64,000 bases of DNA, from NCBI RefSeq assembly GCF_022788695.1, contig NZ_CP085154.1:1364001-1428000 (forward strand). Reading direction: 5' to 3'. The notes under the pieces are model-generated. The model did no database searches, was not told the origin of the DNA, and saw nothing but the letters and a program-made list of their open reading frames with translations. Positions 17,981 to 21,662 of the stretch are shown here, one piece after another. Position 1 is the first letter of the stretch. Each line of letters opens with the position of its first letter. Origin of the DNA: Pseudosulfitobacter sp. DSM 107133 (GTDB lineage: Bacteria; Pseudomonadota; Alphaproteobacteria; Rhodobacterales; Rhodobacteraceae). The position numbers and the translations under genes are program-made.

Positions 17981-18514
17981 ATGGCGCAAAAATCTACGGT
18001 GTATAAAGTTGAACTTTCGGTTTCCGATATGGATCGACACTATTACGAGACGCATAAGCTGACCGTGGCCAAACACCCATCTGAGACGGATGAACGGTTG
18101 ATGGTGCGGATTCTGGCGTTTGCATTGAACGCGCATGAACATCTGGAGATGACCAAAGGGCTTTCATCGGATGATGAACCGGACGTCTGGCAAAAAAGCC
18201 TGAGCGGCGAGCTGGAATTGTGGATCGCACTGGGCCAGCCCAGTGAGAAAATTGTGCGCCAGTCCTGTGGCAAGGCCGACAAGGTGATTGTCTATTCTTA
18301 TGGCAGAACCGCAGGGACCTGGTGGGACAAGATCAAAAACAGCACCACCCGCTTTGACAACTTGCGTGTTGTCAACCTGCCCGAAGCCGAGACCGGCGCG
18401 TTGGAAAAACTGGCAAGTCGCGCGATGAAGGTACAGGTCAATATTCAGGACGGCGAAGTGATGGTCAGCGTTGACGATGAAATTGCCTATGTCACGCCGA
18501 TCATACTGAAATAA
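17981..18514 (+). CDS. yaeQ: YaeQ family protein
   Basis: The 177-residue product opens KSTVYKVELSVSDMDRHYYE and continues KLTVAKHPSETDERLMVRIL, DDEPDVWQKS, ELWIALGQPSEK and TWWDK. These follow E. coli YaeQ along the whole length. YaeQ has a PD-(D/E)xK nuclease-like fold, and its real function is unknown. The start at 17981 (MAQKSTVYK) matches the family N-terminus. An in-frame ATG at 17918 is too long. An IS110 element has inserted about 55 bp downstream of the stop. Confidence 0.93.
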   Translation: MAQKSTVYKVELSVSDMDRHYYETHKLTVAKHPSETDERLMVRILAFALNAHEHLEMTKGLSSDDEPDVWQKSLSGELELWIALGQPSEKIVRQSCGKADKVIVYSYGRTAGTWWDKIKNSTTRFDNLRVVNLPEAETGALEKLASRAMKVQVNIQDGEVMVSVDDEIAYVTPIILK

Positions 18515-18544
18515 CGCCTGAAACTGGCCTTTAGCAGAGGCGAT

Positions 18545-18564
18545 GGACCCTGCGTCTAGGGTCC
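18545..18564 (+). terminator. Hairpin downstream of yaeQ
   Basis: GGACCCT and AGGGTCC pair perfectly around GCGTCT, 30 bp after the yaeQ stop. There is no T-run, and the insertion sequence begins six bases later. It is host DNA in the reading given here and probably the 3' end of the yaeQ transcript. Confidence 0.5.
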
Positions 18565-18587
18565 AGACCCTTCTGTATCTCCGATCT

Positions 18588-18766
18588 GTTATTGTTCCCC
18601 CGTCAGCGACCTTGGCCGAGGTCACTGACGGGACGGTGTATGGCGTCAGAGCCTTGTGGCCCAAGTTGAACTGGGACCACGTTTGCTAGCGAGCCAGCAC
18701 TGTCTCTCTTCATCCATCTCGAACAGTTGCTTGTGGCCAGCTTGGACCACGGATCAGAAGGAAGAG
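18588..18766 (+). ncRNA. Predicted IS110 bridge RNA (ends approximate)
   Basis: IS110 recombinases use a bridge RNA with a target-binding and a donor-binding loop. Here a 5' stem-loop at 18599-18632 (8 bp plus 5 bp) is followed by two loops. The first has left guide CAGAGCCT (18647-18654), hairpin 18656-18680 and right guide TTTGCTAG (18682-18689). The second has left guide ACAGTTGCT (18723-18731), hairpin 18733-18750 and right guide CAGAAG (18755-18760). The first pair matches the flanking host DNA with one mismatch. The second pair matches the element's right and left ends exactly. The length of about 178 nt is close to that of the characterised IS621 RNA. This is a prediction from sequence only. 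Confidence 0.72.
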
Positions 18767-18769
18767 AAC

Positions 18770-19729
18770 ATGAACAGGATAACACGAGACGCAATCCTTG
18801 GCATAGATGTCAGCCGCGATTGGCTGGACATTCATTGCCTGCCAAGCAATCAGAGACTTCGATTGCCCAATTCCGAGGACGGGCATGCGCGCGTGGGCGC
18901 CCTGGCAAAGTCAGCCTGTGCGCTGGTTTGTTTTGAGGCCACAGGGGGGCAGGAATGGCGTCTGTGGTCGGCCCTCGACGTTGCAGGGGTCGCGACCAGG
19001 CAACTGCCGCCCGCGCAAATCAAAGCCTTTGCCGCCAGCCGGGGCACGCGGGCGAAAACGGATAGGATCGACGCGGAGCTTATCGCGCGGTTCATGGCCT
19101 TTCGGCCTGATGCAGGGCGGACCTTGCCGCATGAAAAGATACGTCTTCTCAGGGCTTTGGTGTCCAAGCGTGGTCAGCTCGTCGAAACACGCAAACGGCT
19201 TTTGGCGCAAATCAAGGCGCATGCGAAACTGGGTTCGGATGATCTGTTCGACGTCATGGATGGTGACCTGAAAGACCTACTGGATCGCCAGATTGCAGGA
19301 CTTGAGGTCCGGATCGAACAGATCATCGCCTCAGAGGAAGGCCTTGCCACGACTGCTGCCATCTTGCGTTCAGTTCCCGGCATTGGCCCGGTCGCCAGCA
19401 CGATGTTGATCGCTGAAATGCCGGAACTCGGCCAGATCACGGGCGAACAAGCCGCCGCGCTGACAGGCCTTGCGCCCATTGCCCATGACAGCGGCGCGAT
19501 GCGGGGCAAGCGCGCTATCGGAGGCGGCCGGCGCCCGCTGCGACACGTTATGTTCCAGGCGGCGCTCGTCGCCAGTCACCACAATCCCGTCCTGAAGCCG
19601 TTCGCAGACCGCCTTCGCGAAGCCGGAAAACCACACAAAGTGATAATCACCGCCGTCGCAAGAAAGCTTGTGACAATCGTGAACGCCCTTTGCAAAAGTC
19701 GGCAGAAATGGACTACTCAACTCGCTTGA
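18770..19729 (+). CDS. IS110-family transposase (DEDD/serine recombinase)
   Basis: The 319-residue recombinase has the N-terminal RuvC-like DEDD domain: ILGIDVSRDWLDIH gives the first Asp, CFEATGGQEWRLW the Glu, and KTDRIDAELIARF the later acidic pair. The C-terminal Transposase_20 domain contains VPGIGPVASTMLIAEMPEL. The serine-containing APIAHDSGAMRGKRAIGGGRRPLRH supplies the catalytic Ser. All key residues are present, with no frameshift. The start at 18770 has AAGGAAGAG upstream. The stop TGA lies inside a TTGAGA hexamer that could become a -35 element when the element circularises. Confidence 0.95.
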   Translation: MNRITRDAILGIDVSRDWLDIHCLPSNQRLRLPNSEDGHARVGALAKSACALVCFEATGGQEWRLWSALDVAGVATRQLPPAQIKAFAASRGTRAKTDRIDAELIARFMAFRPDAGRTLPHEKIRLLRALVSKRGQLVETRKRLLAQIKAHAKLGSDDLFDVMDGDLKDLLDRQIAGLEVRIEQIIASEEGLATTAAILRSVPGIGPVASTMLIAEMPELGQITGEQAAALTGLAPIAHDSGAMRGKRAIGGGRRPLRHVMFQAALVASHHNPVLKPFADRLREAGKPHKVIITAVARKLVTIVNALCKSRQKWTTQLA

Positions 19730-19743
19730 GAAATACAGTTGCT

Positions 19744-20039
19744 AGCAAAACGAGGGCTGCAATGATTGATGCAAAACGCATGGGTATTCCTGAACAAACA
19801 CGCGCGGTTTTGTAAGCTGACTGGGGTGATAGTAGGGCAGCGGGTGATCTTTTTGTGCGCATGTGGATGGCTGCCCTTGAACTCGCCGCCCTGCCTGTCA
19901 AACGCGCACATCCGCATCCAAACCTGTGCGCAAAGGCCACGCCGCATGCGCAAAGCGCATTCTCTCTGGTCCCTCGGCGCTGTTCCCGTTAGAGGGGGCG
20001 TTTAACATTGGCGACATATTCGCAGCGTACAGGACACCC
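19744..20039. other. Intergenic region between the IS110 element and the SulP gene
   Basis: About 296 bases of host DNA. It begins with the right half of the predicted IS110 target (AGCAAAACG). Short open frames exist on both strands but none resembles a known protein or has a good ribosome-binding site. TGCGCAT/ATGCGCA-type words recur but form no clear element. It probably holds the SulP promoter, which I cannot place. Confidence 0.4.
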
Positions 20040-21662
20040 ATGGCTTTGATCTCGAACCTCATCCACACCCGTTTCGGCGACTTTCGTGTGGCGCCCGGCG
20101 ACACCCAGTTGGACGCCCGTCAGTGGAAGACCGAAATTCTGTCAGGACTGACCGTCGCGCTGGCGCTGGTGCCCGAGGCTGTGGCCTTTGCCTTTGTCGC
20201 CGGTGTGAACCCGCTGGTGGGGCTTTATGCGGCCTTTCTGGTGGGGCTGATCACGGCGATCATGGGCGGGCGTCCGGGGATGATCTCGGGGGCCACGGGG
20301 GCTTTGGCGGTGGTGATGGTGGCACTGGTGGCACAGCACGGGGTTGAATACCTGTTCGCCACAGTGGTGCTGATGGGGCTGTTGCAGATCTTTGCCGGTG
20401 CGATGCAATGGGGCAAGTTCATGCGGCTGGTGCCGCATCCGGTCATGCTGGGCTTTGTCAACGGGCTGGCGATCGTGATCTTCCTCGCGCAGATGAGCCA
20501 GTTCAAAGTTCCGGGCACAATGGTTGATACCGGTCACGGGGTCAGCGGCGGTGAATGGCTGTCGGGCCAACCGCTGATGATCATGCTGGCGCTGGTGGCA
20601 GCGACGATGGCGATCATCTGGATCACCCCGCGCCTGACGCGGGCGATCCCTGCGCCCTTGGCCGGCATCGGGATTGTGGCGGCAGTGGTCATCGGCTTTG
20701 GTCTGGACGTGCCGCGGGTGGGCGATCTGGCCAGCATCGCGGGCGGTTTCCCCGCATTCCACATTCCGATGGTGCCCCTGAACTGGGAAACCTTTGAAAT
20801 CATCCTGCCCTACGCGGTCATTCTGGCGGCCATTGGTCTGATCGAAAGCCTTCTGACGCTGAACCTTGTGGGCGACATGACCGGCCAGCGCGGAGGTGCC
20901 AGCCAGGAATGTATCGCGCAGGGTGTTGCCAACACGGTCACCGGCTTTTTCGGCGGCATGGGCGGCTGTGCAATGATCGGTCAGTCGATGATTAACGTCA
21001 AATCCGGCGGACGCACGCGGGTCGCGGGGATTACCGCGGCGCTGTTCCTGCTGGCCTTTATCCTTGTCGGGTCGAGCCTGATCGAACAGATCCCGCTGGC
21101 CGCACTTGTGGGCGTGATGTTCATGGTGGTGATCGGGACCTTTGCGTGGAACTCCTTGATGATCATGCGAAAGGTGCCCTTGATGGATGCCTTTGTGATC
21201 GTTCTGGTCACGGTTGTGACGGTGATGGAAGACCTTGCCGTGGCGGTGGTTGTTGGCGTGATCGTCAGCGCGCTGGCCTATGCGTGGAACAACGCGCGCC
21301 GCATCCATGCGCAGATCGAAAATGCCCAGGATGGGTCCAAGATCTATAAGGTGCAGGGCCCGCTGTTTTTTGGCTCGACTGACGGGTTCATGGAGATGTT
21401 CGAGGTGGAAACCGATCCGCTGAGCGTGACTGTGGACTTTGCCGACAGTCGTGTGGTCGACCAGTCGGCCTTGCAGGCGATTGAAACGCTGGCCGGAAAA
21501 TACGAAGAACTGGGCAAGCGCATTCAACTGCGTCACCTGTCGCGCGATTGCCATGCGTTGCTGTCCAAGGCGGGGCATCTGGTGATCGACAGTGACGATG
21601 ACCCTGATTACGCGGTGGCCGCCAACTATGGTGTTCGCACGGGTATTCTGGGCGGTCACTGA
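20040..21662 (+). CDS. SulP family anion transporter with STAS domain
   Basis: Inner-membrane carrier of the SLC26/SulP family, which moves sulfate, bicarbonate or other anions. The 540-residue protein opens its membrane part with WKTEILSGLTVALALVPEAVAFAFVAGVNPL, the family signature, and has about 10-12 helices. FGGMGGCAMIGQSMINVKSGGRTR is the conserved SulP segment. The C-terminal STAS domain (about residues 440-530) contains VTVDFADSRVVDQSALQAIE. No carbonic-anhydrase gene is adjacent, so sulfate versus bicarbonate cannot be decided. Confidence 0.92.
   Translation: MALISNLIHTRFGDFRVAPGDTQLDARQWKTEILSGLTVALALVPEAVAFAFVAGVNPLVGLYAAFLVGLITAIMGGRPGMISGATGALAVVMVALVAQHGVEYLFATVVLMGLLQIFAGAMQWGKFMRLVPHPVMLGFVNGLAIVIFLAQMSQFKVPGTMVDTGHGVSGGEWLSGQPLMIMLALVAATMAIIWITPRLTRAIPAPLAGIGIVAAVVIGFGLDVPRVGDLASIAGGFPAFHIPMVPLNWETFEIILPYAVILAAIGLIESLLTLNLVGDMTGQRGGASQECIAQGVANTVTGFFGGMGGCAMIGQSMINVKSGGRTRVAGITAALFLLAFILVGSSLIEQIPLAALVGVMFMVVIGTFAWNSLMIMRKVPLMDAFVIVLVTVVTVMEDLAVAVVVGVIVSALAYAWNNARRIHAQIENAQDGSKIYKVQGPLFFGSTDGFMEMFEVETDPLSVTVDFADSRVVDQSALQAIETLAGKYEELGKRIQLRHLSRDCHALLSKAGHLVIDSDDDPDYAVAANYGVRTGILGGH

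Follow-up and report, generated by a model that had tools for sequence, protein, structure and literature searches.

The 64,000-nt stretch of Pseudosulfitobacter sp. DSM 107133 DNA analysed here (the window) carries at 18572-19743 what is very probably an autonomous insertion sequence of the IS110 group, with a bridge RNA encoded in its left end whose guides read both the target and the element's own ends. The element inserts at the palindromic tips of a MITE that duplicates TA, or at free, scar-like 12-bp copies of such a tip. The same genome offers 14 occupied and 53 near-identical free sites, and thus a natural assay of bridge-RNA specificity for a compact recombinase (319 aa) with four readable guides. 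The case is of interest for its well-supported footprint and for a retargeting by a single base.

The element, counted with its right core copy, spans 18572-19743 and, like the other window features given below, lies on the forward strand. Copies of the core dinucleotide CT are found at 18570-18571 and 19742-19743, and the right end is ACAGTTG plus the right core copy (19735-19743). A search of the genome returned 16 matches, of which 14 are complete copies and two are partial left ends that have diverged. Start and end bases are identical across all 14 full copies; differing ends, looked for as a refutation, were not found among them. The ends that an earlier note on this DNA had read from the guide matches are thereby borne out, although the interval it gave, 18588-19750, is slightly off. 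Twelve other copies of equal length carry 0-3 substitutions relative to the window copy, none of them inside a guide (positions that differ from copy to copy include 18636 and 18671), and copy L014, which is 1 nt shorter, keeps all four guides with their neighbouring letters. As for the two partial left ends, one (G000:C1:1082387-1082546; L015/L204) comes from a diverged, related IS110 element and its target is the palindrome read the other way, CTGGACC-CT; the other (G000:C1:856211-856337; L016/L205) is a diverged remnant of a related IS110 element.

The recombinase (319 aa, 18770-19729) matches the Pfam families DEDD_Tnp_IS110 (PF01548, 1.4e-18) and Transposase_20 (PF02371, 4.4e-17), and its sequence relatives in the PDB include IS621 (8wt6, E 6.8e-28) and ISCro4 (9t56, E 1.2e-27). 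Residues D13, E56, D98, D101 and S241 align with catalytic positions of IS621, the first four being labelled after what we take to be the four DEDD residues of that protein. S241 is named as the catalytic serine of IS621 (PMC11208158). By sequence alignment the protein is thus a DEDD recombinase with a catalytic serine, as expected of the IS110 group. Other traits of the group are also present: a CT core with no further target duplication (14/14 copies and the uninterrupted L004 locus described below), a predicted bridge RNA with a covarying fold encoded in a long left end, and two pairs of guides matching target and donor. The left non-coding end comprises 198 nt before the start codon and the right one only 12 nt, from the stop codon, which ends at 19729, to the core at 19742. 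Since the RNA is encoded in the left end in the IS110 group and in the right end in the IS1111 group (PMC11208160), a long left and a short right non-coding end correspond to the IS110 layout. Membership of the IS1111 group was rejected on account of this short right end.

The predicted RNA is composed of a 5' stem-loop (18599-18632), a target-binding loop module (18633-18703) and a donor-binding loop module (18706-18766). The window RNA folds with a z of -3.38. A consensus fold of 33 sequences keeps double changes in 21 of its 40 pairs. When the window-based structure of 56 pairs is imposed on the relatives, 88.9% of cells are paired, against a mean of 81.8% with partners shuffled among sequences (0/500 as high) and 37.2-44.1% when the structure is slid. 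Changes on both sides are seen in 25/56 pairs, 20 of which sit in the 5' stem (11/14 pairs) and in the basal stem of the target loop (9/11). Further pair types counted in the same structure are not significant, 70/500 shuffles being as high, and three helices are weaker (65.7, 79.3 and 85.6% of cells paired). The basal stem of the donor loop is nearly invariant among relatives and, because it hardly varies, contributes little covariation evidence. A conserved, covarying fold among relatives, the outcome that the earlier note had proposed to look for with a covariance model, is therefore present. Run on the genome, a covariance model picks up all 14 copies as well as the two partial left ends, and it has matches in 15 of 198 family genomes, that of the window included. 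One match on the strand opposite to a copy, and 13 opposite copies that cover just the 5' hairpin, were set aside as by-products. An Rfam scan of 18000-20400 returned a single match, to an S4 leader (E 0.32, below the gathering score), which was taken as chance. At the tip of the target loop (18655-18681), the window element and L152 have a longer apical hairpin than the 31 remaining sequences of the alignment.

All four guide matches claimed by the earlier note are present in the sequence, and two of them are supported over fewer letters than had been read. The left target guide is UCAGAGC-CU (18646-18654); within it, CAGAGCCT at 18647-18654 agrees with the left flank CAGACCCT at 7/8 positions, as claimed. 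The right guide had been read as TTTGCTAG (18682-18689), which is indeed the exact reverse complement of CTAGCAAA at 19742-19749 (8/8), but only CUAG at 18686-18689 works as the right target guide, and the preceding UUUG (18682-18685) gives no sign of use. Likewise, ACAGTTGCT at 18723-18731 equals the right end 19735-19743 at 9/9 positions, but a match of its last two letters, CT, is confined to the window element (1/45 kept rows). The left donor guide ACAGUUG (18723-18729) is conserved over the other 7 of these 9 matched positions, ACAGTTG being found in 43/45 rows. Finally, CAGAAG at 18755-18760, the right donor guide, is the reverse complement of CTTCTG at 18570-18575 (6/6), again as had been stated. 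Each guide module also carries handshake bases: C18690, in the target loop (18690-18691), can pair with donor G7, and G18761, next to the right donor guide, with target C7. Across 43 rows of relatives, the target-loop C faces donor G7 in 43/43 and the donor-loop G faces target C7 in 35/43.

Aligned at the core, the 14 sites define an 11-bp footprint, CCAGA(C/G)C-CT-AG. Positions 1-5 and 7-11 are identical in 14/14 and position 6 is C in 12 and G in 2; from position 12 on the letters are mixed, with no conservation in the 14 copies. In the window, positions 1-7 of the left target read CCAGACC (18563-18569), and the right target AG (positions 10-11) lies at 19744-19745, where all 14 copies have AG. 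The G at position 6 of the left target guide mismatches the target C in 12/14 copies. Uninterrupted GGGTCCAGACCCTA occurs 53 times in the genome (0 for a reversed control), and of these free sites 36 carry A at position 11, 16 carry G and one carries T. The guide CUAG calls for G there, and the occupied sites have G in 14/14: A or T is found in 0/14 of them and in 37/53 free sites (Fisher p=1.5e-6; p 2.5e-4 with the 8 exact palindromes alone). In this natural assay the footprint comes to 11 bp: position 11 is discriminated, position 6 tolerates a change, and nothing suggests that bases past position 11 are read.

What the guides read is a dispersed palindrome and not, as the earlier note had supposed, a target special to the yaeQ locus. 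In the window, the left target is the scar-like palindrome TA-GGGTCCAGACCC at 18557-18571, whose last C and the following T form the core CT; the site of this copy is a free palindrome. By their adjoining letters, the 53 free sites fall into 22 MITE tips, 23 free palindromes between TA and 8 others. Two MITE copies, of 348 bp (L043:1503-1850) and 262 bp (L019:1251-1512), have 36-nt inverted arms and internal inverted repeats, and the terminal inverted repeats and TA duplication expected of a MITE are borne out by these two copies and by the comparison at L048. In five copies of the element (L006, L008, L010, L011 and L013) the left flanks are related over a long stretch and finish with a MITE-type tip. 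The genome contains 27 free TAGGGTCNNGACCCTA palindromes, with CA in the middle in 23 and CT in 4; five other genomes of the genus hold 0, 1, 0, 3 and 0 palindromes of the same form. One free palindrome of the window's genome, L048 (G000:C1:170471-170486), is absent as exactly 14 bp, the palindrome plus the second TA, in 3/5 relatives, and the other two have short unrelated filler in its place. The same comparison at palindrome L055 was uninformative, as one side did not align. The free palindromes look like scars of the MITE or of its parent, and slippage between the two palindromic tips of the MITE may have produced them. An IS5-like element is also common to the left flank of L010 and the right flank of L012 over 844 bp, with tips GGTCAC and a transposase in two frames as judged by eye. 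It directly abuts the TA of several palindromes, and the same end letters are seen beside L035, L039 and L045.

Orthologous loci place the junction of one copy at the core. Both flanks of L004 are found in one uninterrupted locus in 5/5 same-genus genomes, with the right-flank match starting at most 5 bases from the core; a junction falling elsewhere, looked for as a refutation, was thus not seen at these loci. Of the scar at this site, 13 bp are missing in 4/5 genomes, and the sequence of the fifth (L270) differs at that place. For L009, the left flank was matched in 5/5 genomes and the right flank in none of the 5 corresponding loci. An empty yaeQ site (CTAGGGTCCAGACCCTAGC) was also sought: the yaeQ stretch is present in 7/40 other genomes, where the intergenic DNA could not be aligned, and in two yaeQ-bearing genomes the right-flank match lies about 1 kb further on.

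A scan of genomes yielded 79 distinct loci of relatives, many of which presumably belong to Rhodobacteraceae-type genera. Left ends of 56 loci were aligned with that of the window (57 rows); omitting 12 with broken left ends and merging 2 duplicates left 43 rows. Over these, the left target guide and its target are identical at 216/301 positions against a shuffled mean of 141.7, and within the close group at 153/210 against a mean of 143.0 (maximum 152), with 0/5000 shuffles as high in either case, in a set where some rows are copies from one genome and with shuffles that ignore relatedness. The right target guide pairs with positions 10-11 in 67/76 cases strictly (7/5000 as high) and in 74/76 with wobble (4/5000), under shuffles that likewise ignore relatedness. 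Taken together, positions 10-15 pair no better than after shuffling, 515/5000 and 617/5000 shuffles being as high, so the claim is limited to positions 10-11. On the donor side, the right donor guide and the left end change together: CAGAAG goes with CTTCTG in 27 rows and CATAAG with CTTATG in 12, the other 4 rows having other combinations. L152 has changed on both sides of both target pairings, with TTTGGAC in the left target guide against the target CATGGAC, and CCAG in the right target guide against CTGG. The agreement is uneven along the left target guide: position 1 matches strictly in 8/43 rows and in 41/43 with U-G wobble, position 2 in 24/43, and guide G faces target C at position 6 in 14/31 close rows; in all 9 close rows whose guide has C6, the target has C6 too. 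Misfits are L080 for the right target guide and L081, L097, L138 and L151 for the left target. In a second group of relatives (about 60% identity), which includes L112-L116, L126, L127, L142 and L153, left targets mostly end in AACAC-CT, and the site of one member (L149:1437-2246) adjoins a gene with rve integrase-core domains.

Position 3 is where the window element departs from its closest relatives. There the left target guide has U in 30/31 close rows and A in the window element only; the target has T in 26 of the 30 U-guide rows and A in the 14 copies of this genome. The same-genus relative L157 retains the T/T state at guide and target. One guide base has thus changed together with its target, a natural one-base retargeting that the 14 copies back. 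The left flanks of 10 close-group loci were also inspected, and 8 show, by eye, pieces of one IS5-like transposase type. Three of these pieces, next to the sites of three loci, were tested and match DDE_Tnp_1 or DUF4096. An IS5-family transposase with tips like those of the MITE is a candidate for having moved it. There is about an even chance that this is an RNA-guided lineage living on other transposons, in which several close relatives sit at IS5-type tips and the window element, by a change of U to A at position 3, switched to a MITE or scar variant amplified earlier in its host genome, after which it colonised 14 sites; the RNA may at the same time act as a switch.

The bridge-RNA logic of IS621 type proposed in the earlier note is therefore supported by several findings: ends and guides shared by 14 copies, an 11-bp footprint laid out like the natural IS621 target, uninterrupted orthologous loci for one copy, covariation of guides with targets and with donor ends, conserved handshake bases and a covarying fold. 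Three other explanations have nevertheless to be weighed. That the guide matches are coincidences in an ordinary 5' leader can be put to a direct count, for which the 198-nt left end was shuffled 20,000 times with its dinucleotides preserved. Taken singly, the left target guide (at most 1 mismatch) arises in 3024 shuffles and the right donor guide (6/6) in 1509, so that neither is beyond chance alone; the right target guide at 8/8 and the left donor guide at 9/9 arise in 35 and 29, and all four guides in order in 0/20,000. Chance thus fails to account for either long match or for the four in order, and together with the covariation and fold in relatives this makes coincidence a negligible prospect. 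A right guide that reads all eight bases, which would make the yaeQ-side site a specific target, has in its favour the 8/8 match of the window copy and the finding that recombination by IS621 rose when its right guide was artificially lengthened by three bases (PMC11208158). The window bases at positions 12-15 (CAAA) are, however, not matched elsewhere beyond what chance provides: agreement with the guide over these positions averages 1.0 of 4 in the 14 copies, and amounts to 9, 7, 10 and 9 of 38 rows among relatives, window included. With 14 copies, the probability that one of them matches at 4/4 is about 5%. The four extra matches are luck at the chance rate, the right guide works over CTAG only, and the eight-base reading is quite improbable.

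Scarcely more probable, and still very unlikely, is that site choice rests on protein or shape recognition, by the recombinase or through a DNA hairpin at the palindrome, and that the RNA matches are secondary. The palindrome speaks for this, as GGGTCCAGACCC lies left of the insertion in exact form in 8/14 copies and with one mismatch in 4 more, and palindromes are known targets of some members of the family (PMC11208160, PMC5896051). Yet L003 and L014, with 2 and 3 mismatches, have no palindrome and keep the 11-bp match. A palindrome, moreover, offers two strands, of which CCAGA is used in 14/14 copies and its partner CTGGA in none, as the left guide demands; TAA twins also go unused, and guide and target covary between relatives. 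Selection of the site by the bridge RNA is thus the preferred explanation.

How the element would move can be proposed by analogy with work on IS621, from which the circle, its transcription, RNA-protein binding and the order of strand exchange are taken, the ends, copies, footprint, covariation and fold being observed here. The excised circle would join the two ends as ACAGTTG-CT-TCTGTA, and a bridge RNA of about 170 nt would be transcribed from the circle junction. Its first loop would read target positions 1-9 (UCAGAGC-CU) and 8-11 (CUAG), and its second loop the element's own ends (ACAGUUG and CAGAAG). The recombinase would then exchange strands at CT and insert the circle, without further duplication, into 11-bp sites that lie mostly inside the dispersed palindrome, whether a MITE tip or a free 12-bp copy between TA. 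IS621 is known to form a promoter where the ends of its circle meet (PMC11208160). In the present element a candidate -35 box, TTGCTT, would span the junction of right and left ends (19739-19741, CT and 18572), followed at 18573-18595 by a 17-nt spacer and a putative, weak -10 box (TATTGT after TGT), as judged by motif. TAnnnT occurs at the 17-nt spacing in 36/45 rows and TGN before it in 41/45; the match to sigma-70 is weak (7/12 in the window), and a promoter scan of the linear window sequence found none. GGAAGAG (18760-18766), just before the start codon of the recombinase, is the 3' strand of the donor-loop basal stem and resembles a Shine-Dalgarno sequence, with a similar motif in 43/45 rows. 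This last stem can hide the ribosome-binding site, and guide folding and translation of the recombinase may therefore exclude each other. The word "ribosome" is absent from the main text of PMC11208160.

Bridge-RNA IS110 systems are already known, as is the aiming of such elements at transposon ends and MITE palindromes, and two relatives among the matches listed are already named RNA-guided transposases. For the element itself and its palindrome, a literature search over titles and abstract openings among the matches listed, ISfinder apart, found no paper. ISCro4 (PDB 9t56) is comparable by sequence match alone, as an IS110-type recombinase with detectable homology. IS4321 and IS5075 on Tn21 ends are, in the account associated with Partridge and Hall, reportedly IS1111-group relatives that aim at the terminal repeats of transposons. 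IS1111 on QMITE2 likewise aims at a palindrome inside a MITE, as described in PMC5896051. These elements differ from the present one in belonging to the IS1111 group, with the RNA in the right end (PMC11208160), and in having other targets. ISEc21 and ISMch6 are IS110-family elements with an upstream guide RNA and a target inside another insertion sequence (PMC11187229). ISEc21 differs in targeting the transposase gene of IS3 elements, and natural redirection by changed guide bases has already been described for ISMch6, in the account given by the same source. ISMch6 is, however, a single copy, whereas 14 copies support the changed target here.

IS621 offers a further close likeness. Both elements have homologous recombinases, a left-end bridge RNA with a 5' stem-loop and two loops, a CT core and handshake bases. 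The IS621 guides described in PMC11208158, a 9-nt left and a 4-nt right target guide, correspond in length to those read here, and its natural 11-bp target ATCAGGCCTAC has the same 7-CT-2 form (ATCAGGC-CT-AC; PMC11208160). Dispersed repeats serve as targets in both, REP in IS621 and MITE tips or scars in the present element. The proteins are nevertheless distant (E 6.8e-28), position 6 of the left target guide is usually mismatched here, and conservation of the left donor guide extends over 7 positions, against 8 paired in IS621.
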